A DNA stretch of 33,502 bases from Desulfobulbaceae bacterium (GTDB lineage: Bacteria > Desulfobacterota > Desulfobulbia > Desulfobulbales > Desulfocapsaceae). A program made the translations under genes and the position numbers. The stretch is taken from contig QZLB01000050.1 of the NCBI GenBank assembly GCA_004796425.1, positions 1 to 33,502 on the forward strand. Direction: 5' to 3'. The notes beneath the pieces are model-generated. The model saw only the letters and a program-made list of their open reading frames with translations. It had not been told where the DNA came from and made no database searches. Shown piece by piece: positions 3,387 through 26,731 of this stretch (positions are counted from its first letter, which is position 1; each line of letters begins with the position of its first letter).

Positions 3387-3472
3387 GCTTTCTTGGCCTT
3401 ACAGGTTCCTGACAGAGGTGCGTCCCCAGCTATTTGAAACTGTCAGCAAAATGCTCGTACACCAGGGATCAC

Positions 3473-6497: not shown

Positions 6498-6545
6498 GTT
6501 CATAAAATATAAATCAGTATGGTGTAATCACAACGGTAGCACACG

Positions 6546-6953: not shown

Positions 6954-6967
6954 CAAATGGGTGATTC

Positions 6968-7303
6968 ATGGAGATTTCCTCATATGACAAAGCAGGACAG
7001 AAGGTTGTCGCGATAACTGGTCGCATTGATGCCGTTACCGCAACAGAGCTGAGCAGTTGGGTGGAAAGTGAGGTAACACCACCAACCGCCAATATTATTA
7101 TGGATTGTACAGGTGTTGATTATGTGTCCAGTGCCGGGTTACGGGTAATCCTCCAACTGACCAAACTGGCGAAACAGCACGAGTATATTTTTTCCTTGTG
7201 CAATCCTCAAGACAATCTGAAGGAAGTTCTTGATATAAGCGGTTTTTCATCGCTTTTCCCGGTGCATGGCTCGCTGGAGGATGCCCTGAACAACGATGAT
7301 TAG
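6968..7303 (+). CDS. STAS-domain anti-sigma factor antagonist (SpoIIAA/RsbV-like)
   Basis: The 111-residue protein consists of a single STAS domain. The phosphorylation loop reads DYVSSAGLR; aligned with SpoIIAA (MDSSGLG), the acceptor corresponds to Ser55. The N-terminal VVAITGRIDAVTATEL and the C-terminal LDISGFSSLFPVHGS are typical of the family. When unphosphorylated it should bind the RsbW-like kinase encoded immediately upstream and release that kinase's other partner; the CHASE2-SpoIIE phosphatase encoded opposite would reactivate it. A GGTGA ribosome site sits close to the ATG. The stop codon overlaps the stop of the converging phosphatase gene by four bases. It is the last gene of the 3473-7303 plus-strand unit. 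Confidence 0.94.
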   Translation: MEISSYDKAGQKVVAITGRIDAVTATELSSWVESEVTPPTANIIMDCTGVDYVSSAGLRVILQLTKLAKQHEYIFSLCNPQDNLKEVLDISGFSSLFPVHGSLEDALNNDD

Positions 7304-10069: not shown

Positions 10070-10102
10070 TTTTTCCCCTTTCCGTGCGTGGTCAGGCAGC
10101 AT

Positions 10103-11968
10103 TTACTCTGCCGATTTTCCCAAATAAATTTCGCCGGTGATTTCACCCTTGCGGACCGGGGTTTGTTCCTGCCCGGTTGCACGCTGGACGGCTGATGAAA
10201 CATGGCTGTAAGCTTCATCTACGGTTACATAGCCATCACCATCACTATCCGCCGCACCTTTCAGTCCCTCAATCAGGTGATAGGTAAATACTCCATGGCC
10301 TAGTTCTGGATCCTCTTTGGCAACCTGATTCGCACCAGATGCGGCAATGATTACCCGACCGCTTCCAGAGGAGAGCCGATCGAGAAAGTTATCAGAAATT
10401 GTTGCCCTCCGGGGACTGAATATGGTCCTGCCGCCAATGGCGCCGGAATAGCAGGCATCGGCAATAAATATCAGACGGTCACTTTTTATTCGGTTAAAAA
10501 TAGCGTTGAGGTCAGTCATGGAAAGAGCGGTGCCAAACAGTTCATCGGGGTCGGCATCGTGAGGCAGTAAATATTTCTCAAGTCCGTCACCATCGAGGTT
10601 CATATCATCTGATTCAACACTGCCATGTCCTGCATAAAAGATAATGACGGTATCCTCTTTGGCTGCCATTTTTCTCAGTTTTCCCCCCATCACCGAGCGC
10701 ATACTGCTGAGTGTGACCGCGTCATCGGTTAATTGAATCACCTGATCTGCCGGCACTTTGAGGTGATCGGTCAGGAATGCGGTAAAAGCCTGAGCATCTC
10801 CGACAGCATAGCGAAGGGGAGGTACTTTCTGGTAGTTGTTAATGCCGATGACCACCGCATAAATATTACCGTATGATTTTTCCCTGGTGAACTCGATCTC
10901 TTTTTCAGATACTACACCTTCTGATGTTCGGGCGATCAGAGTTATTTTGTTCGAACCGATCTGGACCGGAATGTTTTTGGTGATCTGGATGTCCTGAACC
11001 GTTTCCTGGGGCTCAACGCTCAGCCCTCTTCCCTGGCCATCCAGGGCTCTGACACCATTAATATAAACTTCTACAGATTCTATGTTGCTGGTGGAAACCA
11101 CCACGGTATCGAGATAGATTGTTGCTTTGTCTGTGACGTAACGGTTATCAGGGCTTCTGACAAAGATCGCAGGTTTCGCTCCTGAGGTTGTGGACGACTG
11201 GCTTACCGATTTATTCTCACGTGCCGTTTGCGGGTTCGTTTCAATCGCAACAGCCTCGGGAGAATCGGCAGCAATTGTGGTGGGAGCGGGAGCATCGTTG
11301 AGCTCATTTCTGGCAAGCAATACTTTAATCAGGCGTGGCTCTGCTTTGACCACCTGTTTGTTAAAAATGACCGTGAATTTCAGGAAGGTGTCTTTATTAC
11401 GCTTCTTTTTTGCTAGCATGAATTTATCTTCGGTGCTGACATCGATCAGTCCGACAAACATGTTTTGATAGGTGCCATCGCGGGCAAAAACGGCAACAAA
11501 ATCAGCATCGACCGCTCTCCCAAAATTGCGGGCCAGCTGAAACCTGTCTGGTGAAAGTTTTTGGTAATCAGTAAAATCTCCTGCCGGGTAATTAAATAAG
11601 GCAGCGAATTCGCTCTTCTGGTATTTCTGGCGAACTTCTTCTTCCGGGATGATATAAAAGCGATCGGTGACGGAGGGGATCATCGATTCCAGTAGATATT
11701 TCTTCAGTTCAAGGTTTGAAATACGGTAAGAGAACTCGGAGTGATCAAGTGGTCCCAATACCAGCAGCCGAACCTTGGCATTGGTTTGCAGGTTGGCCAG
11801 GGTCTTCTGGGTATCCGGCTGGCACCCCGTTCCAAGAAACAGGAACACAGTAAACAGTATGAAAATCACGGAGAACGATCGCTTGCTGTAAAAGTGGTTG
11901 ATCACCACCCGATCACTCAAGTCCATTGTACAAAACCCGAAACAGTGAGAAACGTAGCGTCTCATCAT
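10103..11968 (-). CDS. Caspase-like (peptidase C14) lipoprotein with C-terminal EF-hand
   Basis: The 621-residue protein begins with a lipoprotein signal: a long charged n-region, a hydrophobic stretch and lipobox LGTGC with Cys49. Residues 50 to about 365 form an unassigned region that includes an Ig-like beta segment (FVRSPDNRYVTDKATIYLDT, then SNKITLIARTSEG). From about 368 the caspase-like domain starts (NIYAVVIGINNYQ), with catalytic His448 in FYAGHG and Cys506 in DACYSG. Near residues 574-585 the sequence DSDGDGYVTVDE fits a 12-residue EF-hand loop, which suggests calcium control; a second Asp-rich stretch DMNLDGDG follows the catalytic His. Metacaspases and orthocaspases cleave after basic residues. 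The start has AGGA before ATGATG. It should face the periplasm, in one unit with the DUF4384 and CHASE2 phosphatase genes. Confidence 0.93.
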   Translation of the reverse strand: MMRRYVSHCFGFCTMDLSDRVVINHFYSKRSFSVIFILFTVFLFLGTGCQPDTQKTLANLQTNAKVRLLVLGPLDHSEFSYRISNLELKKYLLESMIPSVTDRFYIIPEEEVRQKYQKSEFAALFNYPAGDFTDYQKLSPDRFQLARNFGRAVDADFVAVFARDGTYQNMFVGLIDVSTEDKFMLAKKKRNKDTFLKFTVIFNKQVVKAEPRLIKVLLARNELNDAPAPTTIAADSPEAVAIETNPQTARENKSVSQSSTTSGAKPAIFVRSPDNRYVTDKATIYLDTVVVSTSNIESVEVYINGVRALDGQGRGLSVEPQETVQDIQITKNIPVQIGSNKITLIARTSEGVVSEKEIEFTREKSYGNIYAVVIGINNYQKVPPLRYAVGDAQAFTAFLTDHLKVPADQVIQLTDDAVTLSSMRSVMGGKLRKMAAKEDTVIIFYAGHGSVESDDMNLDGDGLEKYLLPHDADPDELFGTALSMTDLNAIFNRIKSDRLIFIADACYSGAIGGRTIFSPRRATISDNFLDRLSSGSGRVIIAASGANQVAKEDPELGHGVFTYHLIEGLKGAADSDGDGYVTVDEAYSHVSSAVQRATGQEQTPVRKGEITGEIYLGKSAE

Positions 11969-12192
11969 TTTTTTCCTCGCGTTGGGGTACCCCTGTCATT
12001 GTTGCGCTCCACCTAAAATATCCTATCACAGCGACCGAGTAATAATCCAGTTTACCATCCGATTTAAATGGGAATATATGATTAAGAAGCAAAACCAGGG
12101 ATCCTCTTTCGAACAATCACTCAGCGGATTTTTTCCGCTGCGCTCGCGCTCGTTCCCTTTGTTCAGCAGAGCTTCATCCGAAGCAGTTGGCC

Positions 12193-12220
12193 TTTACTTT
12201 CAGCCAATCATAATTAAAAT
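12193..12220 (+). promoter_or_regulatory. Candidate sigma-70 promoter for the PilZ gene
   Basis: TTTACT (12193-12198) and TAAAAT (12215-12220) are separated by 16 bases. The -10 matches five of six consensus bases. The predicted transcript would start near 12227, directly before a small hairpin (AAGACCA/TGGTCTT, 12229-12246), giving a leader of about 85 bases before the PilZ start. Read by eye. Confidence 0.35.
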
Positions 12221-12228
12221 TTTCTGGT

Positions 12229-12246
12229 AAGACCAGAGGTGGTCTT
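12229..12246 (+). other. Small hairpin in the PilZ leader
   Basis: A perfect 7-base inverted repeat AAGACCA/TGGTCTT with a GAGG loop lies at the very 5' end of the predicted PilZ transcript. It has no following T tract, so it is not a terminator; a 5' stabilising hairpin or an operator half-site are possible. Confidence 0.35.
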
Positions 12247-12312
12247 GGTCGTAAAAGTGCTCTTGCGGGTGATGCGGACACCCTGTAAAAGCGATGCAAG
12301 AAGGAGGAGAAT

Positions 12313-12690
12313 ATGGAACAAAACAGCAATAACGACAGGAGAAAATATCAGAGATATTACATTGGTGAGGGGTTGATTTTCAGTGATCGTCAAAACATCA
12401 TTGGCCTCGCACAGGTTGTTGATCTCAGTAGAAGCGGTATCAAATGCGTCTCCATTTCCGAGCCTACCTGCCCACTTGGTAAGATCAGGGATATTGATCT
12501 TGCAGGTGTCGGCGAGACAGCTCATCTCACCGGGTTGAGCGGGAGAATGATCCGATGCAGCGCCCTCAAAAACCGGAGTGACACTTCGCTTGGCTTGAAC
12601 AGTTTTGAGTTCAGCCTGGAGTTTCACCCTCGATTCCACCCGTTGATCAAGCGTTTCAAACAGAAATTACTCCAGGAACGGACCAGATAA
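12313..12690 (+). CDS. PilZ-domain protein (probable c-di-GMP effector)
   Basis: The 125-residue protein is a single PilZ domain. It carries both c-di-GMP-binding signatures: the N-terminal RRKYQR (the RxxxR loop) and DLSRSGIKC, matching the D/NxSxxG motif. The remainder fits the PilZ beta-barrel, ending in a basic helix (LIKRFKQKLLQER). Such proteins bind c-di-GMP in the cytoplasm and alter motility, polysaccharide synthesis or transcription. The ribosome site is strong (AAGGAGG before ATG 12313). It is monocistronic: divergent from the caspase unit and followed by about 400 bases without a clear gene. Its target cannot be read from the context. Confidence 0.9.
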   Translation: MEQNSNNDRRKYQRYYIGEGLIFSDRQNIIGLAQVVDLSRSGIKCVSISEPTCPLGKIRDIDLAGVGETAHLTGLSGRMIRCSALKNRSDTSLGLNSFEFSLEFHPRFHPLIKRFKQKLLQERTR

Positions 12691-13097
12691 TTGATAGTGT
12701 GCCTTATCCCCATTGGTTCCAGCCAATCGGATTGTGCCGGTAATGTGGAAGTAAGGAGCGATCAGTTCAAGTGGTCGGTATCTGAAATGATACCTGCGTC
12801 AGCCTGCCATTCTGGTTGGTACCAAGCTACCGAGTTCAGTCAGTGGGCTTAAGGTTATGGAATCATGGGAGAATTACTATCCTCGTTACTAAGCCGCAGC
12901 GGTTGCAAGTCGATTTGTCGAGACTGATCAACGGCTATGGCACAGCCTTGGTTGTAGATGCCTGACAGTTCATGGTGAGCTCCTGTCTGGCTAAAAGTTG
13001 GTAACCCTTTCAAAACTTGTTGATAGTACAATGTATTGTTGATTTAATCTTTGAAGGGAAACCCGGGGTGATTTATTAGCTGATTGAACCAGACAAG
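12691..13097. other. 407-base gap without a recognisable gene
   Basis: There is no convincing ORF or RNA gene here. Short coding-like stretches are interrupted by stops in all frames (for example an open stretch to about 12850 and another at 12895-12967), so it may be a decayed gene, but I cannot identify it. The last 80 bases hold the candidate promoter of the next gene. Confidence 0.5.
13020..13048 (+). promoter_or_regulatory. Candidate sigma-70 promoter for the 13098-14643 gene pair
   Basis: TTGATA (13020-13025) is followed after exactly 17 bases by TTTAAT (13043-13048). The start site would fall near 13055, 43 bases before the ATG. The spacer holds an imperfect palindrome (ACAAT, two bases, ATTGT at 13028-13039), a possible repressor site. 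Confidence 0.45.
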
Positions 13098-13523
13098 ATG
13101 AAACTGATTGGAAAAATCGTATTACTGCTGATTTTTGTTGTGGTACTCTTTTTTTATCGCAACGAGTTGCTCTCTGTTGCAGATCAATTCTCCTTCCGCA
13201 AAAAATCTACTATCGAGCAGGCCAGCTGGGGTGGCTTGCGTGAGGAAGCTTTTGCTGCATATGATCGTGACGAACCAGAGGTTGCCGTTACAACCCTGGA
13301 GCAATATCTTGTCCTGGTTGAACAGGAGCTTCGACGTCATGACTATCAATCCGAAAATGAACTGGAAACGACCCGGCTTGATGTGGTCTGTGAACTGAAT
13401 CTGATTCACAATCGCTTGAGTAACACCTACTATCGACTGAGCGATACGGAAAAGTATTTCTATCACGAGTCATTACATCGCGATTTTTTAAGTCAGTGTA
13501 CCGAGATGGAAGATGATGGCTAA
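13098..13523 (+). CDS. Small membrane-anchored protein of unknown function
   Basis: The 141-residue protein opens with a single hydrophobic helix (IGKIVLLLIFVVVLFFY, about residues 4-20) followed by a basic stop-transfer segment and a mostly helical, acidic domain of about 110 residues. There is no proline or glycine clustering, and the spacing of Leu, Tyr and Glu suggests a short helical-repeat (TPR-like) bundle, but I do not recognise a family. Its end overlaps the start of the following protease gene by 11 bases, so the two are translated together. It may be a membrane partner or chaperone of that protease. The signal-anchor would place the helical domain in the periplasm. Confidence 0.75.
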   Translation: MKLIGKIVLLLIFVVVLFFYRNELLSVADQFSFRKKSTIEQASWGGLREEAFAAYDRDEPEVAVTTLEQYLVLVEQELRRHDYQSENELETTRLDVVCELNLIHNRLSNTYYRLSDTEKYFYHESLHRDFLSQCTEMEDDG

Positions 13524-14643
13524 TCAATCAGCGGGGACCACCGAGCGATTTGAGCATTGTCCCAAATGTAATGCGGTTGTCAGAAACCCGCAGGAGTGCA
13601 GGTCCTGTGGGCTACTGTTCGAGCGATATCAAAGGGCCGATCGTAAGAAAAAAAGACGCCAGGAGGCTCAAGATCTGCTCCAGGCAAGGCGTCACTATCG
13701 CGGACGACTCAGCCTGTTATTTGCCGGAATTGTGTGCTTTTATGGAGTCAGCCTGACGTCCCTTATTGTGTTTCCCGGAGAAATAGTTGGTGGTATCGGT
13801 TTTATTGTCCGTTCGACATATCACTGGTTCCATGAGCCTCCACAGCGAATTTATAATCCGACCGACAAGCATTTTCTTGACTACGCCCGCCAGGCGACCG
13901 TTACTATTCGGGCACCCGGAGGTACGGGGTCCGGCTTTTTTATCAGTCCCAATCAGATTGTGACGAATCGGCACGTTGTTGAGCATGATAATGTATCCCT
14001 CGAACAATGGGAAAAAGAGCTGGGGCGTGAACGAGAGATTGTCGAACTTGAAAAACAAATCATAGATGATCTCAAAACAGCTTACCGAAAAATGAAAAAA
14101 GGGCCTGCAAGAAGGCAGCAAAAGCTGATAATCGAGCAGCGGGAAGAAAAGTACCGGGAGGCTTTGCAAGCCCTTGAAAGAAAGGAACAGCGGTTTCAAA
14201 GCGTTGAAAATTCTCTGCGGGAAGGTGAAATCACGGTGATGCTGTTCGATGGGAGTGACTGTAGGGTCGATAGGATAGAGAAAAGCAGCACGTTTGATCT
14301 GGCATTGCTGGAGGTCCCGATTCGCAGCACAGCCTACCTTGAGCCGGAGTCTGATGATTACCCTCTGCAACAAGGCGATACACTTTTTGCAGTCGGTAGT
14401 CCCAAAGGTTTGGAGAATACCGTGACCTCCGGAATCTTCTCCGGTTTCCGCTGGTATGGAAAATCGTATGAATATATCCAGACCGATGCTTCAATTAATC
14501 CCGGCAATAGCGGGGGACCGCTGATAAACCGTCATGGGTATGTGGTTGGGGTTAATACTGCAAAAATATTGGAGGCAGAGGGCTTGGGTTTTGCAATCCC
14601 GATCAGCTCAGTTTTGGACGAATTTGATGACCTGCTGTGGTAA
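13513..14643 (+). CDS. Zinc-ribbon, membrane-anchored trypsin-like serine protease (HtrA-like)
   Basis: The 376-residue protein has an N-terminal zinc ribbon (CPKC and CRSC; Cys16, 19, 29, 32), a basic linker, one transmembrane helix at about residues 68-90, and a periplasmic trypsin-like domain. The catalytic triad is visible: His154 in TNRHVV, Asp262 in STFDLALL and Ser333 in GNSGGPL. Between His and Asp, where HtrA proteases have about 30 residues, there is a highly charged insertion of about 75 residues (about 160-235) with coiled-coil character. No PDZ domain follows; the protein ends shortly after the protease fold. The start overlaps the upstream gene by 11 bases; two tandem ATG codons (13513 and 13516) are possible. 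Substrate unknown. Confidence 0.92.
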   Translation: MMANQSAGTTERFEHCPKCNAVVRNPQECRSCGLLFERYQRADRKKKRRQEAQDLLQARRHYRGRLSLLFAGIVCFYGVSLTSLIVFPGEIVGGIGFIVRSTYHWFHEPPQRIYNPTDKHFLDYARQATVTIRAPGGTGSGFFISPNQIVTNRHVVEHDNVSLEQWEKELGREREIVELEKQIIDDLKTAYRKMKKGPARRQQKLIIEQREEKYREALQALERKEQRFQSVENSLREGEITVMLFDGSDCRVDRIEKSSTFDLALLEVPIRSTAYLEPESDDYPLQQGDTLFAVGSPKGLENTVTSGIFSGFRWYGKSYEYIQTDASINPGNSGGPLINRHGYVVGVNTAKILEAEGLGFAIPISSVLDEFDDLLW

Positions 14644-14768
14644 CTTCAACAGTTGATCATTGCTTGTATAATCTATGAAAGTACGCTTTAATAGCCGCCG
14701 ATATTGATTGACCCTGTCCTCATGGTCATTATGAGAATCACCAGCAATTCCCCAGAGGTTGTTTGCCT

Positions 14769-15737
14769 ATGAATCGGTATGTGGAAGTATTTGAAGTGGT
14801 AACAGAGGAAAATTTTTCTGAAGAGCGGTATCTCGCCGAAAACCGGGATGTGCAGGACGCTATTACTGCCGGAAAGGTAAAATCCGGCTGGCACCATTTC
14901 AAACGGCATGGGAAAAAAGAACGCAGAAAGCAGCTCAAAGTTGATTATATTCAGGCCATTAACGGGATCAGGCAAGACAAGGCGGAGAAAATACGAAAGA
15001 TTATAAAGCCCGAGCTGCGTGGCCATGAATCAGATGAAGTATTTTTTGATTTCCTCAACGACACTCAAAAAGCTCAATTCGATTATGATCACACCGACAA
15101 GGTATCATCTTTTTTTTACGGGGAGGCGGCACTCTCCCTGGTCAATGGTTTTCCCGATGGACTGATCCTTGACTGTGGGGCGGGTTTCAGGCCGGTTTAT
15201 TACGAGAATGTTGTCAATTATGAGATTGAGCCTTATCCTACAACCGATGTGCTTGGCTTTGCAGAAGCGTTGCCGTTTCAGGATAACAGTTTCGATGCGG
15301 TGATGTCGTTTGCGGTCCTTGAACATGTCAAATACCCATTCAAGGTGGCCGAGGAGCTCATCAGGGTTCTGAAACCCGGTGGCAAGTTGACGGTCAGCGC
15401 TGCGTTTCTCCAACCTGCACACGGCTACCCCCACCACTACTTCAATATGACTTCATCCGGTATGCGCACACTTTTCGAAAACGGTATTGATATAGAGGAT
15501 CAATATGTCACTCCAGGCACCGGCCCGATCTCAACACTGAGCTGGGTACTGCGGGACTGGACCAACAGTCTGCCGCCAAAGGAGCGGAAAAAATTTAAAA
15601 AGATGCGTGTTGAGGAGCTGATAGGACCTGCTTTCGCATATTCTGACAAACCGTTTGTTTCAATATTATCAGAGTCGGTGAATTTTCAGTTGGCCAGTGC
15701 CACCTTTCTGGTGGGAGAGAAAAAACAGTCCCCCTAA
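14769..15737 (+). CDS. SAM-dependent methyltransferase with N-terminal YLxxNxDV-type repeat
   Basis: The protein (about 322 residues) has a class I methyltransferase core. Motif I is LILDCGAGFRP, then the acidic strand end VVNYEIEP, the motif II/III region NSFDAVMSFAVLEHV, and LKPGGKLTVSAAF, as in Methyltransf_11. The N terminus (about residues 15-55) carries a motif of the form FSEERYLAENRDVQDAI, then WHHFKRHGKKERR, a short helical repeat often seen in large bacterial glycosyltransferase and glycan-modifying proteins. This suggests a sugar or surface-glycan substrate. I chose ATG 14769; TTG 14763 lies closer to the AGAGG at 14754-14758 and is an alternative. The gene converges on the autotransporter gene with a 4-base overlap. 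Confidence 0.88.
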   Translation: MNRYVEVFEVVTEENFSEERYLAENRDVQDAITAGKVKSGWHHFKRHGKKERRKQLKVDYIQAINGIRQDKAEKIRKIIKPELRGHESDEVFFDFLNDTQKAQFDYDHTDKVSSFFYGEAALSLVNGFPDGLILDCGAGFRPVYYENVVNYEIEPYPTTDVLGFAEALPFQDNSFDAVMSFAVLEHVKYPFKVAEELIRVLKPGGKLTVSAAFLQPAHGYPHHYFNMTSSGMRTLFENGIDIEDQYVTPGTGPISTLSWVLRDWTNSLPPKERKKFKKMRVEELIGPAFAYSDKPFVSILSESVNFQLASATFLVGEKKQSP

Positions 15738-18091
15738 AACCGCCACTTTAATCCCAGGCTGATACCCACCGCGCTGAAATCCTCACCATAGCCGAGGCCT
15801 GCGTCAAGAGAGAAGGAAAGGTTGGTGCCGCAGGAGGCTGCAGCACCAATCTCTAAAGTTACCAGGTCTGGTGGTAATGGTTGTCCTTCAAAAGCGAGAG
15901 GCACCGATGACAGATCATTGAACGCCGCATCAATACCATATTCACCATTCAAAAAATCATGCCGCCAGCTCAGACCAATTCGCGGTAGTAAAGTGAACGA
16001 TTCTCTGACGATTTTTGTGATTCCACGTAATCCAATATCCAGCATGACACGATTTTCACTACGGGAAGCAACCTGAAGGCCAAAGGAACCGCGCTCGCTT
16101 TCTGTAAAATCATCGGAGCCTTGGTACCCATAGCCAAGATGCAGGCTCGGTCCGAGGAGCCAATTGGCAACCTGGTAATCATATCCGCCGCCGATCTGGG
16201 CCAGTACAATATGGCTTGTATAATCTGCGGTCGTCCTGAGACCAGGACTGCTCCCTGAAGGGTTGGGTCGACTGGCATCGTTTGTAACATACCCATAACT
16301 GAGCAGCAGGTCGAGATACCAATGATCAGTATCAAGTTGACTGTAAATACCAGCGATCATACCACTCTGTTCTCCCCGGTAACCAGGATCATCAAAATCA
16401 AGTGTTGTATCAACAATCTCGAGGGCAGCGCCCAATCGAGCTCCTGGGAAAAGTTGCCGGTCAAGCCCCACCCCTCCCGTTGAGGTCTCGGCGTCATATC
16501 CCATAGATTGACCTTTTGAACGGGTCAGCCAATCGCGGCCAACTCCACCCCAAAGACGCCAATCTGCCGTCTGCTCATTCGGGTTTTCAGTTTTGGCCTG
16601 ATGGTTGCTCATGGCCAGGGAGTCAAGGAATTGATTTTCACGGATGGAGCCGATCGATGAGGTGAGCTTTGCAGCGAACTGGTATACGTTATGGGATTGG
16701 ATACCGAGCAGCGTGGTGAAGTGTTCCGGGCTGATTGAAGCCAGCGTTCTAGCCAGTTGCTCTTGAGACTGGTCAAAATCCATGGAGATAAGCAGGTTCT
16801 CGAGACTGGAGCCCGTTCCCTTTACAATTGGAATGAGTTGATCCAGTGCAGCACCGGTCGATTGTTGTCCATGCGTCTGACCAAATATACGGTAAGAGTT
16901 TCGCTTCACGTTTAGTATCACATCAGTGGCCTGGTTGGTAACAGAAGCCGAGAGAACAGGGGATGGTGAAAGGCTCGCCACCTGGGTAAAAGAACCGGTA
17001 ATCGAGGAGGCAGATAGTATACGATAGCTGGAAGTCTTGGGGTAGAGCGCACGTATCAACTGTACTTCGACGCTACCACCATTGATGTTGGCGGGCCCAT
17101 TTATCTGTAAAGTGTCACCACTGCCACCCGGGCTGACCTCAACCTGCAGTACGCTACCGGGATTCTGAACATAGGATCCGTTAATGACCAGATTCCCAAT
17201 AGAATTACCAGGAGCCAGGATACCGTTATTGATTACCCTGCCGATAATGGTACCGCTGCCTTTCAGGGTACGATAATTGGTGAGTTGACTTTCCAACCTG
17301 CCGTTAACCTGGAGGGTGCCTTGCAAGACAACCGTCCCCTGTGAGAACAACCAGTAGTCAGAAAGGGTTGTGACACCGGGTCCAGTTATTAGAAGCTTTT
17401 CGAAATTGGCGTAGTCAGCGCTGCTTCGAGACCCGGCACCCTGGAACTCAAGAGTGTCTGTCCCTGATCCACCGTCTACCTTACCGCCGACCGATGCGCT
17501 CCCGATAATGGTAACCTGATCATCACCTCCTTGGCAAAAGATTGAACCGTTCACCACACCGCTATTGACGATTGTATCGTCGCCGTCCGCACCCATCGTG
17601 TACTCGGGTCCATTATCACCATAGATGCTGCCTTCTACGGTACCGCTATTATCGATATAGTCATCACCGCCTTCACCGGCTATGTAGGAGTGAACCTTAC
17701 CGCTGTTGAGAATCTGGTCATCGTCCTCTGCACCAAAGATTTCCCAGCCGACCGAGCCATGATTTTCGATGATATCGTTACCGTCTTCCCCGTCAATACC
17801 AAGGATATGACCATGGTTTATCAGGGTATCGTTGCCATCATATCCATAAAGTTCACCGATATATCCGTAATTGATAACGGTATCGTCACCAGGGCCGACA
17901 TCAACTTCGACCGCAATGATACCGCTTGACTTGTTCAATAGATAATCGTCATATACCGTGCCGATCCAGAAACCGAGAAGACCGTTATTGACATCCGTGA
18001 CTGCCAATAGGGATGTGGGGGGCAATATCAAGAACAGGACCAGCATGAGGCCGCTTAACCGGTGCGATAATCGCCAAACGATTGTTTTCAT
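15734..18091 (-). CDS. Autotransporter (type Va) with Asp/Asn-rich beta-helix passenger
   Basis: The 785-residue protein has a Sec signal (LSGLMLVLFLILPPTSLLA), a passenger and a C-terminal outer-membrane barrel. Passenger residues about 55-235 are repeats of about 20-25 residues combining GDD or GxDGDD turns with NxG strands (NYGYI, NHGHI, NSGKV, NSGTV, NSGVV). Residues about 280-340 include the passenger-associated segment GSGTIIGRVINNGILAPGNS. From about 505 the autotransporter barrel begins (WRLWGGVGRDW) and it ends in aromatic Phe (LGLKWRF), the BAM recognition signature. Length and architecture are normal for a small autotransporter. The ribosome site GGGAG precedes ATG 18091. No protease or adhesin domain is recognisable, so adhesion or biofilm matrix is only an inference. 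Confidence 0.94.
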   Translation of the reverse strand: MKTIVWRLSHRLSGLMLVLFLILPPTSLLAVTDVNNGLLGFWIGTVYDDYLLNKSSGIIAVEVDVGPGDDTVINYGYIGELYGYDGNDTLINHGHILGIDGEDGNDIIENHGSVGWEIFGAEDDDQILNSGKVHSYIAGEGGDDYIDNSGTVEGSIYGDNGPEYTMGADGDDTIVNSGVVNGSIFCQGGDDQVTIIGSASVGGKVDGGSGTDTLEFQGAGSRSSADYANFEKLLITGPGVTTLSDYWLFSQGTVVLQGTLQVNGRLESQLTNYRTLKGSGTIIGRVINNGILAPGNSIGNLVINGSYVQNPGSVLQVEVSPGGSGDTLQINGPANINGGSVEVQLIRALYPKTSSYRILSASSITGSFTQVASLSPSPVLSASVTNQATDVILNVKRNSYRIFGQTHGQQSTGAALDQLIPIVKGTGSSLENLLISMDFDQSQEQLARTLASISPEHFTTLLGIQSHNVYQFAAKLTSSIGSIRENQFLDSLAMSNHQAKTENPNEQTADWRLWGGVGRDWLTRSKGQSMGYDAETSTGGVGLDRQLFPGARLGAALEIVDTTLDFDDPGYRGEQSGMIAGIYSQLDTDHWYLDLLLSYGYVTNDASRPNPSGSSPGLRTTADYTSHIVLAQIGGGYDYQVANWLLGPSLHLGYGYQGSDDFTESERGSFGLQVASRSENRVMLDIGLRGITKIVRESFTLLPRIGLSWRHDFLNGEYGIDAAFNDLSSVPLAFEGQPLPPDLVTLEIGAAASCGTNLSFSLDAGLGYGEDFSAVGISLGLKWRF

Positions 18092-18378: not shown

Positions 18379-19008
18379 ATGGATGAGAAATTGTATCAGC
18401 ACTATTTTGACGCTTTGATCAAGGGTGATAAAGCCACTTGCAACGAGATCATAATGGATCTGCTGGACAAAGATGTTGATATCCGAACCATTTACATCGA
18501 TCTGTTCCAGAGAAGCCTCTATCAGGTTGGTGAGCTTTGGGAGCGCAATAAGATCTCAGTTGCCACCGAGCACCTGGCAACCGCCATTACCGAAGGGTTG
18601 TTGGGGCTTCTCTACCCAAGAGTTTTTGGGGCGGAACACAACGGTAAAAAGGCGGTTGTCTCCTGCGCCGTAAATGAGTATCACCAGATCGGTGGCAAGA
18701 TGGTTGCTGATATCTTCGAGATCAACGGGTGGGACAGCCATTTTCTTGGTGCAAACACCCCCCTTGATTCATTGCTTGAGCATATTCAGGAATTTCAACC
18801 CGATGTGCTGGCCTTATCGCTTTCAATGTACTCAAATCTGCCAAAATTACTAAAAACCACCGATACCATTCGGGGTAATTATCTCCACCTCGATATTGTT
18901 TTTGGTGGGCAGGCGTTTCGTTGGGGAGGGCAGGATGATATGCTGAAAATATTGCGCACGCAGTATTTCCCATCCTTAATTGATTTTGAAAATTCTCTTA
19001 AACCATAA
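18379..19008 (+). CDS. Stand-alone cobalamin-binding protein with CarH-type photoreceptor signatures
   Basis: The 209-residue soluble protein has a four-helix B12-binding cap (about residues 1-85) and a Rossmann-like B12-binding domain (about 90-205). The cap contains W54 followed by nine residues and E64-H65, the Wx9EH signature of the adenosylcobalamin photoreceptor CarH. The B12 domain has E100-Y-H102-Q-I-G105, the ExHxxG motif whose His is the lower cobalt ligand; LSLSM and FGGQAF match later cobalamin-contact loops. There is no MerR DNA-binding domain and no enzyme domain. GAGG precedes ATG 18379 by eight bases. A histidine kinase gene starts three bases after its stop codon, so this is probably the sensory partner of that kinase. 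It could instead sense cobalamin itself rather than light. Confidence 0.92.
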   Translation: MDEKLYQHYFDALIKGDKATCNEIIMDLLDKDVDIRTIYIDLFQRSLYQVGELWERNKISVATEHLATAITEGLLGLLYPRVFGAEHNGKKAVVSCAVNEYHQIGGKMVADIFEINGWDSHFLGANTPLDSLLEHIQEFQPDVLALSLSMYSNLPKLLKTTDTIRGNYLHLDIVFGGQAFRWGGQDDMLKILRTQYFPSLIDFENSLKP

Positions 19009-19011
19009 TCG

Positions 19012-20127
19012 ATGAAAACACAATCTCCAGAACTTGTTGCACTCGTTTACCAATATGTGATGCAACAGGCGGATCTGCTTTTGATCATGCTTTCTGCTGA
19101 CGCAAAGGTAAAATACGTGAATAACAGTGTTGAAAAACTGGCAGGTTCTTCACCGGTCGGCAAATCATTTGATGAGCTGATCTTGAATTTTCACGGTTCG
19201 TTGCGACTTGACAAGATGGCAGACGATGGGCAGGTACATTTGCTCAATGTGGTCAATGCCTCGGGTCTTCCTCTGACCTATTATTTCCGTTTCACACGTT
19301 TTGAGGACAAAGTAATCGCAATCGGTCAGCAGGATGCCGATGAGATTGATGCGATGCGTCGGAATCTGGTGGATCTAAATAACGAACTCAATAACCTGAC
19401 GCGGGAGTTACACAAAAAGAATGCTGAACTGGAGAAGTTGAACATTCAGAAGAACCAGTTTTTTGGCATGGCCTCCCATGATCTGCGTCATCCGCTTGGG
19501 GTGATTTCCATGTACGCCACCTTTCTAAATGACGAGATAGGGACGAGCCTTAGTCCCACTCATCACAATTTCCTCGAATTTATCCGTAATGCAAGCACAC
19601 TGATGGAGAGTATCCTGAACGATTTTCTCGACTACTCCATTTTTGAATCAGGCAAGCTTGAGCTGAAGTGCAGTAGTTTCGAACTCAATGGATTTATTGA
19701 GAAACTCTCTGAATATACCCAGCATCTTGCTCAGCAAAAGAATGGCCGACTGTTGTTCACCCCTTCCCCAACGCCAATAAAGGTATATGGTGACGAAGCG
19801 AAGATAGAGCAGGTGATCAACAATCTGACCAGTAATGGCTTGAAGTTCTCAACCAGCGAGCCGGAGATCCAGATCACGGTAGAAGCTGAAGAGGGCAAGG
19901 CGATCATCCATGTCAGCGATAACGGTATTGGTATTGATGAGGAGCATGTGCCGATATTGTTCAAACCATTTAACACCTTACATGCAAAGGTACCAGCAGG
20001 GGAGAAGAGTTCAGGTCTTGGCCTGGCAATTGTTAAAAAGATTGTCGAAGCACATGGCGGGGAGATATGGGTTACCAGTTCACCTGGTAACGGTGCGACC
20101 TTCTCTTTCTCATTACCTTCCAGTTAA
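19012..20127 (+). CDS. Soluble PAS sensor histidine kinase
   Basis: The 371-residue cytoplasmic kinase has no transmembrane helix. Residues about 10-115 form a PAS-like domain (LLLIMLSADAKVKYVNNSVEKLAG). A coiled coil (NNELNNLTRELHKKNAELEKL) leads into HisKA with phospho-acceptor His156 in MASHDLRHPLG. The ATPase domain has N box QVINNLTSNGLKFS, G1 SDNGIGID, and GLGLAIVKKIVEAHGG. It begins three bases after the cobalamin-binding gene, and a response regulator gene follows after about 100 bases, so the three very likely form one signalling pathway. Because the kinase lacks its own obvious external sensor, the B12 protein may supply the input through the PAS or coiled-coil region. Confidence 0.95.
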   Translation: MKTQSPELVALVYQYVMQQADLLLIMLSADAKVKYVNNSVEKLAGSSPVGKSFDELILNFHGSLRLDKMADDGQVHLLNVVNASGLPLTYYFRFTRFEDKVIAIGQQDADEIDAMRRNLVDLNNELNNLTRELHKKNAELEKLNIQKNQFFGMASHDLRHPLGVISMYATFLNDEIGTSLSPTHHNFLEFIRNASTLMESILNDFLDYSIFESGKLELKCSSFELNGFIEKLSEYTQHLAQQKNGRLLFTPSPTPIKVYGDEAKIEQVINNLTSNGLKFSTSEPEIQITVEAEEGKAIIHVSDNGIGIDEEHVPILFKPFNTLHAKVPAGEKSSGLGLAIVKKIVEAHGGEIWVTSSPGNGATFSFSLPSS

Positions 20128-20179
20128 TCGAAATAGCCAGCGATGAGTTTTGTACTTGAGTATTCAGCGGTTTTTGTAG

Positions 20180-20208
20180 TTTAATGGAATGGTGTGGATC
20201 AGTATAAT
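20180..20208 (+). promoter_or_regulatory. Candidate promoter for the response regulator
   Basis: A perfect -10 hexamer TATAAT (20203-20208) is preceded at 17 bases by TTTAAT (20180-20185), a weak -35. Transcription would start near 20215, downstream of the TTG at 20211, which argues that translation starts at ATG 20226. The regulator may thus be transcribed both with the kinase and on its own. Confidence 0.45.
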
Positions 20209-20225
20209 ACTTGGATATAAAACCG

Positions 20226-20855
20226 ATGATTAGAGTAATTACCGCAGACGATCACGCCTTGATCCGTCAGGGAGTACAGCATATTCTCGAGAAAACAGAG
20301 GATATCAGCGTGGTTGCCGAAGCAGAAAACGGCCAGGAGTTGCTGCGCCGTTTACGTAGCGGCAAGTTCGATGTGGTTACACTTGATCTGAATATGCCCG
20401 GTATGGACGCTTTTGAGGTGATCGAAAAAGTCAGAATCATCGCCCCTGATCTGAAAATTCTAGTTCTGACCGTACATCCGGATAAACGATATGGTCTCCA
20501 GGTTATGAAGGCCGGCGCCTCCGGTTATTTGAACAAATCAAGCGACTTGACCGATCTGGTAAGTGCGATTCGTACCGTTCATGCGGGTAAGAAATATATC
20601 GGTCCCTCTCTCGCTGAAAAACTTGCCGATACTCTGGATGAAGATTACCAGACCCAGCCTCATGAGCTTCTCTCTGAGCGCGAATTTCAAGTACTCTGTT
20701 GGGTTGCCAAGGGCAAAACCTTGACAGAGATTGCGTCACAATTGAATCTCTCAACCAAAACGATTTCTACCTATCGGCGAAGGCTGCTTGATAAGATGAA
20801 ACTGGAAAACAACGCCCAACTAACCTACTACGCGATCGAGAACCGATTAGTGTAA
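20226..20855 (+). CDS. NarL/LuxR-family response regulator
   Basis: The 209-residue protein has a receiver domain (about residues 1-120) with acidic residues Asp8-Asp9, phospho-acceptor Asp54 in VVTLDLNMPGMD and conserved Lys in YLNKSSD. A LuxR-type HTH follows (about 145-205; LSEREFQVLCWVAKGKTLTE, then LNLSTKTISTYRRRLLDKM). It is the evident partner of the PAS histidine kinase encoded upstream and probably an activator. I chose ATG 20226; an in-frame TTG at 20211 lies upstream of the predicted transcript start. Likely targets include the gene immediately downstream, whose 5' region carries a duplicated 55-bp element with palindromic cores. Confidence 0.95.
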   Translation: MIRVITADDHALIRQGVQHILEKTEDISVVAEAENGQELLRRLRSGKFDVVTLDLNMPGMDAFEVIEKVRIIAPDLKILVLTVHPDKRYGLQVMKAGASGYLNKSSDLTDLVSAIRTVHAGKKYIGPSLAEKLADTLDEDYQTQPHELLSEREFQVLCWVAKGKTLTEIASQLNLSTKTISTYRRRLLDKMKLENNAQLTYYAIENRLV

Positions 20856-21039: not shown

Positions 21040-21094
21040 CTTCCTAAAGATATGTAGGACATATTCGGACAACAGAATGGGAATCTGTCTGATA
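21040..21094 (+). repeat. 55-bp duplicated regulatory element, copy B
   Basis: This is the second copy, starting 144 bases after copy A. The core is ATGTAGGACAT (21052-21062), followed by GGACA-18 bases-TGATAC in the same geometry. It ends about 75 bases before the preferred CheB-CheR start at 21170. Eleven substitutions separate the copies; the 5' block and the GGACAT and ATCT.TCTGATA blocks are the best conserved. Confidence 0.7.
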
Positions 21095-21169
21095 CAGATC
21101 TGTCTGATAAATGGATATAATAATTGTAAATATATCAAAAAAATAATTATGCGCCCAAGAGGTTCCAGT

Positions 21170-24091
21170 ATGCGCGATTCAAATGGCCAGACCCGGGAAT
21201 TGAAGAATCAGGTGGTAGATCGCGAGAGTGCTACTCAGGTGATCGAAGATTCCGAGGAATCTTTTTACATTGTTGGCATTGGTGCCTCAGCCGGAGGGCT
21301 TGAAGCACTGGAACAACTCTTTCGCAAAATGCCGGATACAACCGGGATGGGATTCGTCGTTATCCAGCATCTCTCTCCCGACCACAAATCACTGATGGTT
21401 GAGTTGCTCTCAAAACACACTGCCATGGATGTGATCAGGGCGGAAAACGGGGTGAGTATCGAGCCTGACAAAATATACGTCCTGCCGCCCAAAAAGACGA
21501 TGACCCTTGAACACGGGGTGATCCAGCTCATTGATAAAGATCCGCGAGCCCACATCAACCTCCCCATCGATATGTTTCTTTCGTCGCTTGCTCGGGATAG
21601 AGGGGAACATGCGGTTGGAATCATCCTTTCCGGTACCGGTAGCGATGGAACGCGTGGCATTCGATCAATCAAGGAGGTTGGTGGTCTGGTCATGGTGCAG
21701 GAACAGACGAGTGCCAAGTTTGATGGAATGCCACGGAGCGCCATCTCCACGGGGTTGGTCGATTTTGTCCTGCATCCAAACGATATATCAAGTGAATTGA
21801 TCAGATATACCGATCAGCATAAGCTCAGGACAAAGTATGCCACCCAGGGCATCCTGATGTCGGATAGCGAGAAAATTAACGCGATATTTCAGTTGGTTAA
21901 AAATCAGAATAATATTGACTTTGCCCAATACAAACCGACCACCATCGCCCGTAGAATCCAGCGGCGAATGGACGTGATCCGACTCGAAACGTTGGATGAA
22001 TATCTTCGTCATCTACTGGCTTCCCCCCGTGAAGTGACTCAGCTCTGTAAAGAAATGTTGATCGGGGTAACGAGTTTTTTTCGGGACATGAAATCTTTTC
22101 AGAAGGTAGGGAAGGAAGTGATTCCTGAAATACTCTCAGGAAAACAGGGTCGGGATTCCATACGTGTCTGGTGCGCCGGTTGTTCGACCGGGGAGGAGGC
22201 ATACACCTTGGGTATACTCTTTGCCCAGGCGATGGAAGAGCGGGGAACCTTTTTTGATGTGAAGATTTTTGCAACCGATGTTGATCGTGATGTGCTGGAG
22301 TTTGCCAGTGCCGGAAGCTATCCGGATTCAATTGCTGCTGATGTTCCGGAAGAATACCTGAGGAGATACTTTACCCATCTCAATGGTAAATACTCGGTTA
22401 CCCGGGAGATTCGGGAGTTGATCGTCTTTGCCCCGCAAAATTTGATCAAGGACCCGCCATTCACCAAGATTGATTTGGTCAGTTGCAGGAATTTACTTAT
22501 TTACCTGCAACCGGTATTGCAGACAAAGGTATATGATTTTTTCAGGTTCTCATTGTTGCCCGGAGGGTATCTTTTCCTTGGTGGCAGTGAGACCCTGGGG
22601 GATCATAGTGAGTATTTTGAAACGGTTGATGCGAAATATAAGCTTTACCGGATGAAGCAGGACTCCAAGAGCGGTGTCGCTCAGGGTTTAAATCTCACCA
22701 TGAATCGCGGCGATCTTTTCATTCCCCATACCCAAAGGCTCAGGCGGGGAGGTGATAAAGAAGATATCCTGGTCAAAATTATCGGCAGTTTCCTCGATCA
22801 GGAAACCCAGGCGTGCATGGTGCTTAATGAAAAGTTCCAGATCACCTATACCTTTGGTGACCCGGGTGATTTCGTCTCATTCACCAGTGGGGAGGCCAGC
22901 CTGGATATCACCAAACTTGTTCCCAAGGATTTATCCCTTTCGTTGTCTACCGCTCTCTATCGGGCCCAAAAGGAGCGAAAGACCATTCATTACAAGGGTA
23001 TATTGCTCAAACGAGATGAACAGACCGATGTAGTCAACATCCGGGTGAGCCTGGTTGAGATCGGCCCGGATAACCGTTTGTTCTATATGGTCTTTCTGGA
23101 CATTGCCCAGCAGGATCAAGACCAGGATTCCGAGTCAGTCAGAACGGTACATGAGGAGATTTCCCAGCATGTCAGTGATCTTGAAAATGACCTTCACTAC
23201 ACCCGGGAAAACCTGCAGGCAACGGTTGAGGAGTTGGAAACCTCCAATGAAGAACTGCAGGCAGCCAATGAGGAGTTGTTGTCGTCAAATGAGGAATTGC
23301 AGTCTACCAATGAGGAGCTGCAATCGGTTAACGAGGAGCTTTTCACCGTGAATACCGAGTATCAGCAGAAAATCAAAGAGATGACTGAGCTCAACAATGA
23401 CATAGAGAATCTGGTGCGTTGTACCGATATCGGCTCGGTCTTTCTCGATAATCAGATGCTGATCCGAAGGTACACACCGGCCATGAATGAATTTGTCAAT
23501 ATCATCGATAAAGATGTCGGCAGGAACTTTTTTGATCTGACCCATAAGCTCGACTACGTGTACCTGGAAGAAGATACCCGGGCGGTTCGGGAAACCAAAG
23601 TGAACGTCGAAAAACAGATCGCCCATATCGACGGTCGGCCGATTCTTTTGAAAATTGTTCCTTATCTAGATGAGCGCAAGGATAGTGCTGGCACCATCAT
23701 TAATCTCATTGACCTGACGGCAATTCGAAATGTTGAGCTTGATCTGATGCAGCGGACCAATGAAAAGGACATTGTGCTTGAGGTAATTCCGGACCCGATT
23801 CTTTTTTTCAACGGGGCTCATCAGGTGGTCTGGGCAAACAAGGGTGCCTTTGCCAGCCTGGGACTTGAAATGCATCAACTGCTGGGTAAGAAGCCCGCTG
23901 ATATCTGGGGCAAAGCAGGGAAAAAACTGCTTATCAGAACCTTTCAATCAGGTAAGCGAACCAGCCACCAGCTCCAGTCAGATGATGGCCGGAGTTGGGT
24001 GCTTACTGATGTGCCGGTATTTAACGAGGATGGCTCGGTTCGAGCTGTTGTTGAAAATGCGCATCCACTGGAGCAGCAGGATGCTTCATAA
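21170..24091 (+). CDS. CheB-CheR fusion with coiled coil and PAS domains
   Basis: The protein has 973 residues from ATG 21170, chosen because AGAGG lies upstream; the frame is open further 5', but that stretch overlaps the duplicated element. Order: CheB methylesterase (about 32-225; Ser40 in GASAGG, His67 in IQHLSP, Asp159 in GTGSDG) without a receiver domain; CheR methyltransferase (about 240-510; [48 protein letters not shown]); an uncertain segment; a heptad coiled coil with repeated NEELQ units (about 690-755); then two PAS domains. There is no kinase domain; the next gene supplies one. Such fusions are thought to act on receptors or kinases outside the classical chemotaxis cluster; no MCP or cheA gene is nearby. 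Confidence 0.95.
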
Positions 24092-24114: not shown

Positions 24115-26169
24115 ATGAATCGTGATGACAAAAGTATATTCTCTGAGATCTCGTCGCTCATCAGTCAGTCAACAAGCGGGCTGTCCGAGAAGGATCTGCA
24201 TTATATGAACGAGTTCAAGAAAATTATCAGTGAACTGCAGACCTACCAGGTTGAACTAGAGATGCAGAATGAAGAGCTTCGCAGAGTCCAGAAGGAGCTG
24301 CAGATCAGCAGGAATAAATATTTTGACCTGTTCGACCAGGCTCCTACCGGTTATCTCCTTTTGGATCAACATCTGATTGTTCAGGAGGCAAACCTTGCGG
24401 CCTTGGCGCTGTGTGGGCTGAGCACAGCAGAGATTCAACACAAGCTGTTCCTGTTCATGCTCAGATCCAAGGATCATGAACAGAGTTTGGGTTATCTCAG
24501 CCGAATTCTCAACGAGCAGGAAGCAGAAGATATTACCGTTCGCCTGGATCGAAAAGATGGGTCTTATCGTACCGTGCGGATCAAAGGGATTTTGTCTCCT
24601 CATGGTAATGAGCAAAAACAGGTTCTCGTCTCCCTCACCGACCTTACTGATCTCCACTCTGCACAGGAGGCATTGTCGCAGAGCGAAAACCTCTACCGTT
24701 CACTGGTCTACTCTTCAGAGGACCACATATTCATGCTCAGTGTGGACGGCCATTTCATGACCAGCAATGGAAATATTACCTGTCTGCCCGAGTTGACCGA
24801 GACGGTTATTGGGAAGCACATCAGCGAGGTATTTCCTGAAGATCACACGAAAACCATGATCGAGCAGATAAACCGGGTCCTGCTAGATGGCACCCAGGTT
24901 AATTTCGACAATCCCTGTCGCATTGGCAGCCAGGTATTCTACATGGCCTATCATCTCTATCCCATCAACCGGGATGGTTTTCTCTGGGCGGTCGGTGGCG
25001 TCTGCCACGATGTCTCTGATCAATGTGAGATACAACGCGAAAAAGAAGCACTTGAGGCACAACTTCGACAATCGCAGAAATTGGAGTCCCTGGGTAACCT
25101 CGCGGGCGGTATCGCCCATGATTTTAACAATATATTGTCTTCTATCCTCGGTTTCAGCGATCTCGCTCTGGATGAGATTGAACCAGGCACAACCCTGGAA
25201 GATGATATCATGGAGATCAAAAAGAGTGGTACCCGGGCCAAAGAGTTAGTCCAGCAGATCCTAGCCTTCGCCCGCAGCTCCAATAAGGAGATGGCACCCG
25301 TTTATATGCCGGCAATGGTCAATGAGGCAACGAAATTTATCCGGTCGACAACTCCCACCTCTGTTGCGATCGATTCACTGGTGGAAACCGATTCATACAT
25401 CTGGGGAAATGAAACGGAAATACTCCAGGTATTGATGAACCTGCTGACCAACGGTGCCCAGGCAATGGAAGAGAACGGAGGGGTGCTGTCAATTGCGGTG
25501 CAGGAGAGTTGTGATGATGGTGACATTGTAATTAGGATTGCGGATACCGGCAGCGGGATCGACTCGCAGATTATCGGGAAGATATTCGAACCGTATTTTA
25601 CCACCAAAGATATAGGGGAAGGGTCGGGTATGGGACTTGCTGTCGTCCATGGCATCATTGAAAGCTATGGAGGAGAGATATCAGTTGAAAGTATAAAGGA
25701 TCAGGGGACAACCTTTACGGTACGTATCCCGATCTATGTGCATGAAGTAGAGAATCAGTCAGCGGATGAATTAGAAGAGACTATCATTGGAGGTGACGAG
25801 CGGGTTCTGCTGGTTGACGATGAACCCTCCATTACCCGGGTGGGTACCAAACTACTGAAACACCTTGGTTACCAGGTGGAATCGACCAATGACTCTTTTG
25901 AGGCACTGAAACTCTTTCGACACGACCCTGATTTTTTTGACCTGGTGATCAGTGATGTAACGATGCCGGGCATGACCGGAGAAAAACTGGCCAGTGAGCT
26001 GATGAAGATCAATCCGAAGATTCCGGTTATTCTCTGCACGGGCTATAGTCGAAAAGTCACTGAGCAGGATCTCAAGAAGTGGAGAATCAAAGCTCTGTTG
26101 AAGAAACCGTACGAGCGGCGGACATTTGCCGGGATGGTACGCTCGGTACTTGATGAAAAGCAGTCCTGA
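24115..26169 (+). CDS. Soluble PAS-PAS hybrid histidine kinase
   Basis: The 684-residue cytoplasmic protein has an N-terminal coiled coil (about residues 30-70, EMQNEELRRVQKELQ), PAS domains at about 70-185 and 195-305, HisKA with His335 in GGIAHDFNNILSS, an ATPase domain (QVLMNLLTNGAQAM, ADTGSGID, GMGLAVVHGIIESYGG) and a C-terminal receiver (about 563-680; Asp614 in VISDVTMPGMTG, CTGYS, LLKKPY). The NtrB-like H box and soluble nature resemble PAS kinases paired with CheB-CheR fusions. It starts 23 bases after the CheB-CheR gene and shares its coiled-coil/PAS style, so the two are probably one operon and may act together. No DNA-binding output is attached, so a further phosphotransfer partner is expected. 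Confidence 0.95.
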   Translation: MNRDDKSIFSEISSLISQSTSGLSEKDLHYMNEFKKIISELQTYQVELEMQNEELRRVQKELQISRNKYFDLFDQAPTGYLLLDQHLIVQEANLAALALCGLSTAEIQHKLFLFMLRSKDHEQSLGYLSRILNEQEAEDITVRLDRKDGSYRTVRIKGILSPHGNEQKQVLVSLTDLTDLHSAQEALSQSENLYRSLVYSSEDHIFMLSVDGHFMTSNGNITCLPELTETVIGKHISEVFPEDHTKTMIEQINRVLLDGTQVNFDNPCRIGSQVFYMAYHLYPINRDGFLWAVGGVCHDVSDQCEIQREKEALEAQLRQSQKLESLGNLAGGIAHDFNNILSSILGFSDLALDEIEPGTTLEDDIMEIKKSGTRAKELVQQILAFARSSNKEMAPVYMPAMVNEATKFIRSTTPTSVAIDSLVETDSYIWGNETEILQVLMNLLTNGAQAMEENGGVLSIAVQESCDDGDIVIRIADTGSGIDSQIIGKIFEPYFTTKDIGEGSGMGLAVVHGIIESYGGEISVESIKDQGTTFTVRIPIYVHEVENQSADELEETIIGGDERVLLVDDEPSITRVGTKLLKHLGYQVESTNDSFEALKLFRHDPDFFDLVISDVTMPGMTGEKLASELMKINPKIPVILCTGYSRKVTEQDLKKWRIKALLKKPYERRTFAGMVRSVLDEKQS

Positions 26170-26296: not shown

Positions 26297-26731
26297 ATGA
26301 CGAAAGACGATCTGGTTAGTAGTGCAAAATCTTTGGAATTTCAGGAAAAAGCAGCCGATGATTACAGTGAGAAACGCGGCGAAATGGTATCAAGAGTTAA
26401 TTCAAAAATGGCTTCCCGTGATGATATCGATTTTTTAATCGGTGAGGCCAATCTGGAAATGATGAAGGATAATCATGCCAACCATGGACTCTTTATTGAG
26501 TCAATGCTTCACTCCTACAATCCAGAGGTGCTGGTTGAGACGATACATTGGGTCTTTCGAGCCTACAAGTCCAGAAATTTTCATGATAATTACTGGGCAG
26601 CGCAACTGAACGCCTGGTGCATGGTGATTGAAGACACCCTTTCAGAGGAATCAGCCAAAGCGGTACTGCCCCTCTATCATTGGATGACCGTAAATATTCC
26701 GCAGTTTAACGCGCTATCAGAACAAAGTTGA
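26297..26731 (+). CDS. Helical protein of unknown function, 144 aa
   Basis: The 144-residue soluble protein has no signal peptide or membrane helix. It looks all-helical, with conserved-looking aromatic and His residues in the second half: NHANHGLFIESML, HWVFRAYKSRNFHDNYW, LNAWCMVIED, LPLYHWM. I do not recognise the family. The several His and Trp residues on predicted helices would suit binding of a cofactor or another protein, but this is only an impression. The ribosome site is excellent (GAGGTGA, five bases before ATG). It follows the hybrid kinase gene by about 130 bases and has its own candidate promoter, so it may be a target or accessory of the signalling block. A long hairpin follows its stop codon. 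Confidence 0.8.
   Translation: MTKDDLVSSAKSLEFQEKAADDYSEKRGEMVSRVNSKMASRDDIDFLIGEANLEMMKDNHANHGLFIESMLHSYNPEVLVETIHWVFRAYKSRNFHDNYWAAQLNAWCMVIEDTLSEESAKAVLPLYHWMTVNIPQFNALSEQS

Follow-up and report, generated by a model that had tools for sequence, protein, structure and literature searches.

Genes at the locus

The window analysed here, a 33.5-kb stretch of DNA that makes up a whole contig of a Desulfobulbaceae bacterium (parent genome 4.4 Mb, 97% complete), encodes a stand-alone cobalamin-binding protein of 209 amino acids (aa; positions 18379..19008), a soluble PAS-histidine kinase of 371 aa whose gene starts 3 nucleotides (nt) past the cobalamin stop codon (19012..20127) and a NarL/GacA-type response regulator (20226..20855). 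These genes, as well as the accessory and globin genes described below, all lie on the + strand. An original prediction, made from the letters of the sequence, took the three genes for a split photoreceptor in which a CarH-like B12 domain controls a kinase as a separate protein. We find it likely that the window encodes a split photoreceptor of the photocobilin type, with the cobalamin protein acting in trans on a PAS transmitter; the cofactor, the response to light, the docking on the PAS domain and the direction of the signal are predicted parts of this reading. What we observe are the domains and motifs, the coupling and co-occurrence of the genes and the predicted folds; from these we infer cobalamin binding, light response and control of the kinase.

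The cobalamin protein

The 209-aa protein matches Pfam PF02607/PF02310 and consists of a four-helix subdomain (residues 1-79, 18379..18615; B12-binding_2 match at residues 7-78, 60.9 bits) and a Rossmann-type B12-binding subdomain (residues 91-180, 18649..18918; B12-binding match, 63 bits). Both light-associated signatures named in the original prediction, Wx9EH (W54, E64-H65) and ExHxxG (E100, H102, G105), were found at every position claimed and inside the right domains, in the stretches GELW-x9-EH and NEYHQIG, and the Rossmann subdomain also holds GxxxP in the form GANTP. The counterparts of W54, E64 and H65 in CarH and the photocobilins hold the adenosyl group, and H102 is the expected lower cobalt ligand. 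In shuffled versions of the protein, Wx9EH arises anywhere by chance with a p of 0.0055, and W54, E64 and H65 are invariant among the orthologues in the order Desulfobulbales, to which the window genome belongs and from which 258 whole genomes were used for all order-level counts; 13 of the 258 carry the cobalamin gene. A search of the protein with Pfam for the MerR DNA-binding domain of CarH gave nothing besides the two B12-binding domains, in agreement with what had been claimed.

The comparison with CarH stood as far as motifs and fold are concerned. By sequence, the nearest solved structures are the photocobilins (8j2w/8j2x, 84 bits) and CtMerR (67 bits), with corrinoid proteins next and CarH thereafter (30-32 bits), and the score against the NCBIfam CarH equivalog was 50.4 bits, below the cut-off of 400. 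That this is a complete two-subdomain cobalamin domain of the CarH/photocobilin type, lacking a DNA-binding domain and closer to photocobilins than to CarH, is well supported by these sequence comparisons. The photocobilins (SasPcob and AbPcob) and CtMerR are light-responsive (PMC10979010, PMC11796333), and three of the four elements of the published light signature (SignatureFinder: GxxW, EH, GxxH and GxxxP; PMC11796333) are present in the window protein as GELW, EH and GANTP. Two CobA/CobO-type adenosyltransferases are encoded in the genome, so that adenosylcobalamin can probably be made, and the only B12-binding_2 domain found there is the one described here.

The same two-domain fold is that of the corrinoid proteins of methyl transfer, and weak matches to the pyl_corrinoid and MtaC/MtgC/MtbC models would fit a methyl-transfer protein that happens to sit beside ordinary signalling genes. 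We consider this very improbable: all of these matches fall far under the NCBIfam cut-off, Wx9EH stands in place of the methyltransferase-type cap, there is no adjoining methyltransferase gene in the window, and the PAS partner described below is nearly invariable. Corrinoid methyltransferase-type proteins from the same order were without Wx9EH. A role as partner of a corrinoid methyltransferase was rejected on the scores below cut-off and on the cap with Wx9EH.

The PAS partner

The kinase is laid out as PAS-coiled coil-HisKA-HATPase_c (HisKA at residues 146-214, HATPase_c at 260-370), with the H-box (H156 in HDLRHP) and the G boxes present, and no hydrophobic transmembrane stretch was found along its 371 aa. 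Its position directly behind the cobalamin gene and its soluble character are as originally described. Pfam misses the PAS domain in the window kinase, and one relative gives a weak PAS_8 match. In the AlphaFold model, however, the N-terminal domain (residues 14-111, 19051..19344) has PAS topology, with strands at residues 23-27, 32-36, 75-81, 87-97 and 100-106 that are mostly of high confidence, and a continuous helix (residues 109-179) links it to the kinase core. The whole model aligns with LOV-PAS kinases in Foldseek.

One genome per species was scanned by alignment, which yielded 304 relatives. The best 80, kept with their flanks, are from Thermodesulfobacteriota (39), Verrucomicrobiota, Bacteroidota, Spirochaetota, Myxococcota, Acidobacteriota, Pseudomonadota and others, and the locus set comprises 81 loci from 13 named phyla. 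The scan used short patterns, including LWExNx[IV]SVA, which means that conservation of the tryptophan and the glutamate over the 81 loci is partly built in, whereas gene adjacency is unaffected. Genes were called as simple open reading frames (ORFs), many of the loci come from metagenome-assembled genomes (MAGs), some possibly mis-binned, and the survey counts ignore shared descent except for label counts made on a tree of the cobalamin domain. Viral contigs searched for relatives contained none, and a plasmid search gave nothing beyond two 87-base matches.

In 78 of the 81 loci, a gene neighbouring the cobalamin gene was matched by a profile of the PAS domain that had been built without the kinase core. 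Directly behind the cobalamin gene lie 77 of the 83 PAS-domain ORFs, the others being five tandem second copies and one divergent gene, and in 76 of these 77 a start codon falls between -26 and +39 nt from the cobalamin stop (median, -1 nt). The 81 loci hold 138 kinase ORFs, and all 61 that have this PAS domain are located at the cobalamin gene. Within the order, nine genomes have the domain, at 11 places altogether, and 10 of these places are at a cobalamin gene. What is conserved as partner is the PAS domain and not the kinase, because the output may also be a GGDEF diguanylate cyclase domain (eight loci) or a short tail: in ten loci the partner is a protein of 200-220 aa with a Cys-rich 'ICxxCxxIR...SHxICxEC' tail that is unknown to Pfam. 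The coupling of the cobalamin protein to a separate signalling protein is thus conserved across phyla, which is well supported by the gene order, and in this part the original prediction was borne out; the idea of a kinase as the dedicated partner gave way to a PAS domain with varying outputs. The co-occurrence of cobalamin gene, kinase and NarL regulator, which had been proposed as a check, held for the PAS partner and failed for the regulator, which adjoins the pair in a few loci only and is no constant partner. We suggest that the cobalamin protein docks on the PAS domain or delivers its signal to it.

The Cys-rich tail ('ICxxCxxIR-D...SHxICxECxxKxYP') is about 60 aa long, replaces the kinase (for example, L066:3813-4418, L079:10658-11263 and L097:10636-11259) and is also found on a response regulator. 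Strict confinement of the PAS domain to cobalamin loci was tested and rejected on account of a single orphan copy in the window's own genome, a kinase with the same PAS domain and no adjoining cobalamin gene (L140:6084-7208 on the - strand, the same as contig C271:14083-15207). Behind it lies a gene for a receiver protein whose Cys-rich tail reads SHxxCxEC. The cobalamin protein of the window could have this orphan kinase as a second target. In another genome (G118, L044:7690-8830), the cobalamin gene stops after about 130 codons and joins the C-terminal part of the kinase in a different frame while the globin described below is intact; this junction is a deletion or an assembly error.

The globin and the heme oxygenase

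Further downstream lies a gene for a 144-aa protein (26297..26731), which has a clear globin fold in its AlphaFold model (pLDDT, 96.4) and is most likely of the bilin-binding kind. Pfam gave no match, and neither phmmer nor a profile search against the Protein Data Bank (PDB) sequences gave a real one, so the identity of the protein rests on fold and gene context. In Foldseek, allophycocyanin and smURFP rank at the top (TM, about 0.65), and VIA-align gave Z scores of 14.1 for smURFP and 11.7 for the bilin domain of a photocobilin. D58 is a tentative candidate for the bilin contact that Asp270 makes in photocobilins. The RGMC motif of BBAG-2 was looked for in the protein and is absent. Relatives of the globin cluster with the cobalamin gene in 45 of the 81 loci, often directly before it or directly behind the kinase gene, and in three related genomes of the order (L042, L043 and L045) the two domains form one chain, with the globin at the N-terminal side. 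All nine genomes of the order that have the globin are among the 13 carriers of the cobalamin gene (Fisher p of ~6e-14, relatedness ignored). These associations suggest that the globin belongs to the cobalamin sensor system as a third subunit. The original prediction had overlooked it; as an interpretation, that prediction is partly supported, being mostly right and too narrow.

A ~440-aa heme oxygenase is encoded at 10 of the 81 loci, none of which has the globin as well; the chance of this is 1.4e-4 if independence is assumed and relatedness and contig ends are ignored. The enzyme may either just provide bilin or stand in for the globin. On the tree of the cobalamin domain, heme-oxygenase and globin types are interleaved inside a supported clade, and the heme-oxygenase label needs 7 changes. 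A Pfam heme oxygenase occurs in five genomes of the order, four of which carry the cobalamin gene and three of which have the two genes adjacent; in a Desulfopila-related MAG, 9 nt separate the cobalamin gene from a heme oxygenase gene upstream of it. An N-terminal His and an EGSxLG stretch are typical of heme oxygenases, and both are kept in most copies of the ~440-aa protein. Since heme oxygenases produce biliverdin, this adjacency gives a second line of evidence tying bilin to the cobalamin protein. The C-terminal half of these proteins (for example, L032:6617-7948, L036:7358-8671 and L041:8953-10305) is conserved ('NPEAGxHxxPxDxREIxAA...') and has no assigned family; a second heme-oxygenase or globin domain was rejected as its identity, with no similarity found by hhalign.

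Heme-binding globin sensors reached Z scores of 13.1 to 13.4 in VIA-align and thereby tie with bilin globins at 13 to 14, and the window globin might accordingly be a heme-based gas sensor of the globin-coupled-sensor type, in which case the cluster would integrate oxygen, and not bilin, with B12. We think this improbable given that Foldseek puts phycobiliproteins and smURFP first, that the alternative neighbour is a heme oxygenase and that the bilin domain of photocobilins shares both the fold and the B12 partner. With the globin taken as bilin binding, it probably holds a bilin in related species that extends the response to red light.

Light or cobalamin form as the signal

Several observations weigh against light sensing of the kind proposed. 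The GxxH element of the light signature reads N99-E-Y-H102 in the window protein, i.e., NxxH. The residue after the tryptophan is glutamate (E55), as in all ten order-level orthologues, where Thermus CarH has H132, and a bis-His light state is therefore not expected from the sequence. No PF01126 heme oxygenase was found in the window genome. The globin reads SRNF at a site where an HGF triplet stands in 47 of 53 relatives, and its gene lies five genes downstream of the cobalamin gene and behind a gap of 127 nt. The second point also sets the protein apart from CarH and has a precedent, as CtMerR and the photocobilins lack the second His ligand as well; with Glu at residue 55, the light state should resemble theirs and not that of Thermus CarH (PMC11796333). 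The lack of a heme oxygenase together with the SRNF sequence makes bilin loading of the globin doubtful in the window species, where the globin may bind bilin differently or no longer at all and the cobalamin route may act alone.

It is also conceivable, with a rather low probability, that the cobalamin protein senses the form or supply of cobalamin (adenosylcobalamin versus hydroxo- or methylcobalamin, redox state or oxygen) instead of light, with the PAS domain relaying this information to the kinase. Identical motifs and gene coupling would be expected in that case, many carriers are sulfate reducers or other anaerobes, and the window genome has further B12-binding proteins. However, the protein retains the adenosyl-pocket tryptophan and EH of the photoresponsive domains, the recurrent partners, a bilin-type globin and heme oxygenase, are more in keeping with light than with cobalamin supply, and B12 synthesis or uptake genes did not stand out among the neighbours examined.

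For a light-driven system, we propose that the 209-aa protein would hold adenosylcobalamin between the helical bundle, with W54 and E64-H65 around the adenosyl group, and the Rossmann domain with its ligand H102. In the dark, it would be docked on the PAS domain of the kinase, the product of the downstream gene coupled to its own. Under green or blue light the Co-C bond would break, upon which the cobalamin protein would alter its shape or oligomer state and shift the signal helix that runs from the PAS domain through the coiled coil to the DHp part (helix 109-179), changing the activity of the kinase, which would pass the signal on to the NarL-type regulator. The globin would be a third subunit.

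Relation to known systems

The photocobilins SasPcob and AbDPcob (PMC10979010) resemble the window system in having the cobalamin domain that is closest by sequence among solved ones, paired with a bilin-binding globin. There, light controls an attached enzyme, a diguanylate cyclase in AbDPcob (PMC10979010). In SasPcob and AbPcob, one chain carries the globin C-terminal to the cobalamin domain, in contrast to the window, where the cobalamin protein, the globin and the PAS-output protein come from separate genes; in the fusions of L042, L043 and L045 the order is reversed. CarH/LitR share Wx9EH, ExHxxG and the four-helix and Rossmann cobalamin domain, whereas the window protein differs in having no MerR domain, in E55 instead of the second ligand H132 and in an output through a PAS kinase. 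In AerR-CrtJ (PMC5362033, PMC6199135), likened here by description, a cobalamin photoreceptor also works in trans on a second protein; that protein is a transcription factor and not a PAS transmitter with a kinase, GGDEF or short-tail output. In photoglobin-B12 systems (Schneider et al. 2022), as far as they are described where cited in PMC10151467 and PMC10979010, a bilin-type globin is genetically linked to a B12-binding protein with predicted light signalling, and the BBAG-2 globin (PMC10151467), although marked by an RGMC motif that the window globin lacks, likewise lies beside a separate B12 protein. The kinase resembles the LOV-histidine kinase YF1 (4gcz) in being a soluble PAS-helix-HisKA-HATPase protein that aligns over its whole length in Foldseek; its PAS domain is without a visible LOV-type Cys motif and is proposed to take its signal from the separate cobalamin protein.

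Precedents, known or predicted, exist for B12 photoreceptors that act in trans (AerR on CrtJ), for light sensors that combine B12 with a globin (photocobilin) and for gene pairs of the two (BBAG-2, photoglobin). In the literature examined, we did not find a near-obligate separate PAS partner with swappable outputs or the alternation of globin and heme oxygenase, part of which may be noted in the 2022 photoglobin study. It is tempting, but at present speculative and rather unlikely, to see here a whole class of two-chromophore photoreceptors put together from separate proteins that can be exchanged. A cobalamin sensor and a near-obligate PAS transmitter with a kinase, cyclase or short-tail output would be joined by a bilin globin or, in its place, by a two-domain heme oxygenase able to produce the bilin and also to present it.

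To our knowledge, the known B12 photoreceptors act on DNA, on a transcription factor or on a fused enzyme. If our interpretation is true, a B12 sensor that works in trans through a PAS adaptor of its own would put light sensing by coenzyme B12 upstream of two-component and c-di-GMP signalling. It would do so in organisms that are rarely considered light-responsive, among them anaerobic sulfate reducers, spirochaetes, Bacteroidota and Verrucomicrobiota. Defined gene sets (sensor, PAS partner, and globin or heme oxygenase) are offered for direct tests, and the kinase is a candidate for a natural green-light-controlled kinase in optogenetics.

Other genes of the window

The response regulator that follows the kinase is of the NarL type, as originally described (Response_reg, 95.6 bits; GerE, 66.3 bits), and most likely starts at ATG 20226 and not at TTG 20211; a syntenic homologue in L032 is 59% identical. 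It is followed by a CheB-CheR-PAS fusion protein (21077..24091; CheB_methylest, CheR and PAS) and a PAS-PAS hybrid histidine kinase with a receiver (24115..26169; HisKA, HATPase_c, Response_reg and PAS), which are likely accessory. The five genes from the cobalamin gene through the hybrid kinase are syntenic in the Desulfopila-related MAG, where the homologue of the fusion protein is 54% identical, and the syntenic homologue of the hybrid kinase is 42% identical. Upstream, the region 3434-14643 is dense in signalling genes, with an ABC transporter, a cyclic-nucleotide-binding protein, HATPase_c_2, a CHASE2-SpoIIE phosphatase, DUF4384, a caspase-domain protein and a trypsin-like protease, and an autotransporter with a repetitive passenger (15734-18091) is convergent with a methyltransferase gene (14763-15737), the two overlapping by 4 bp.
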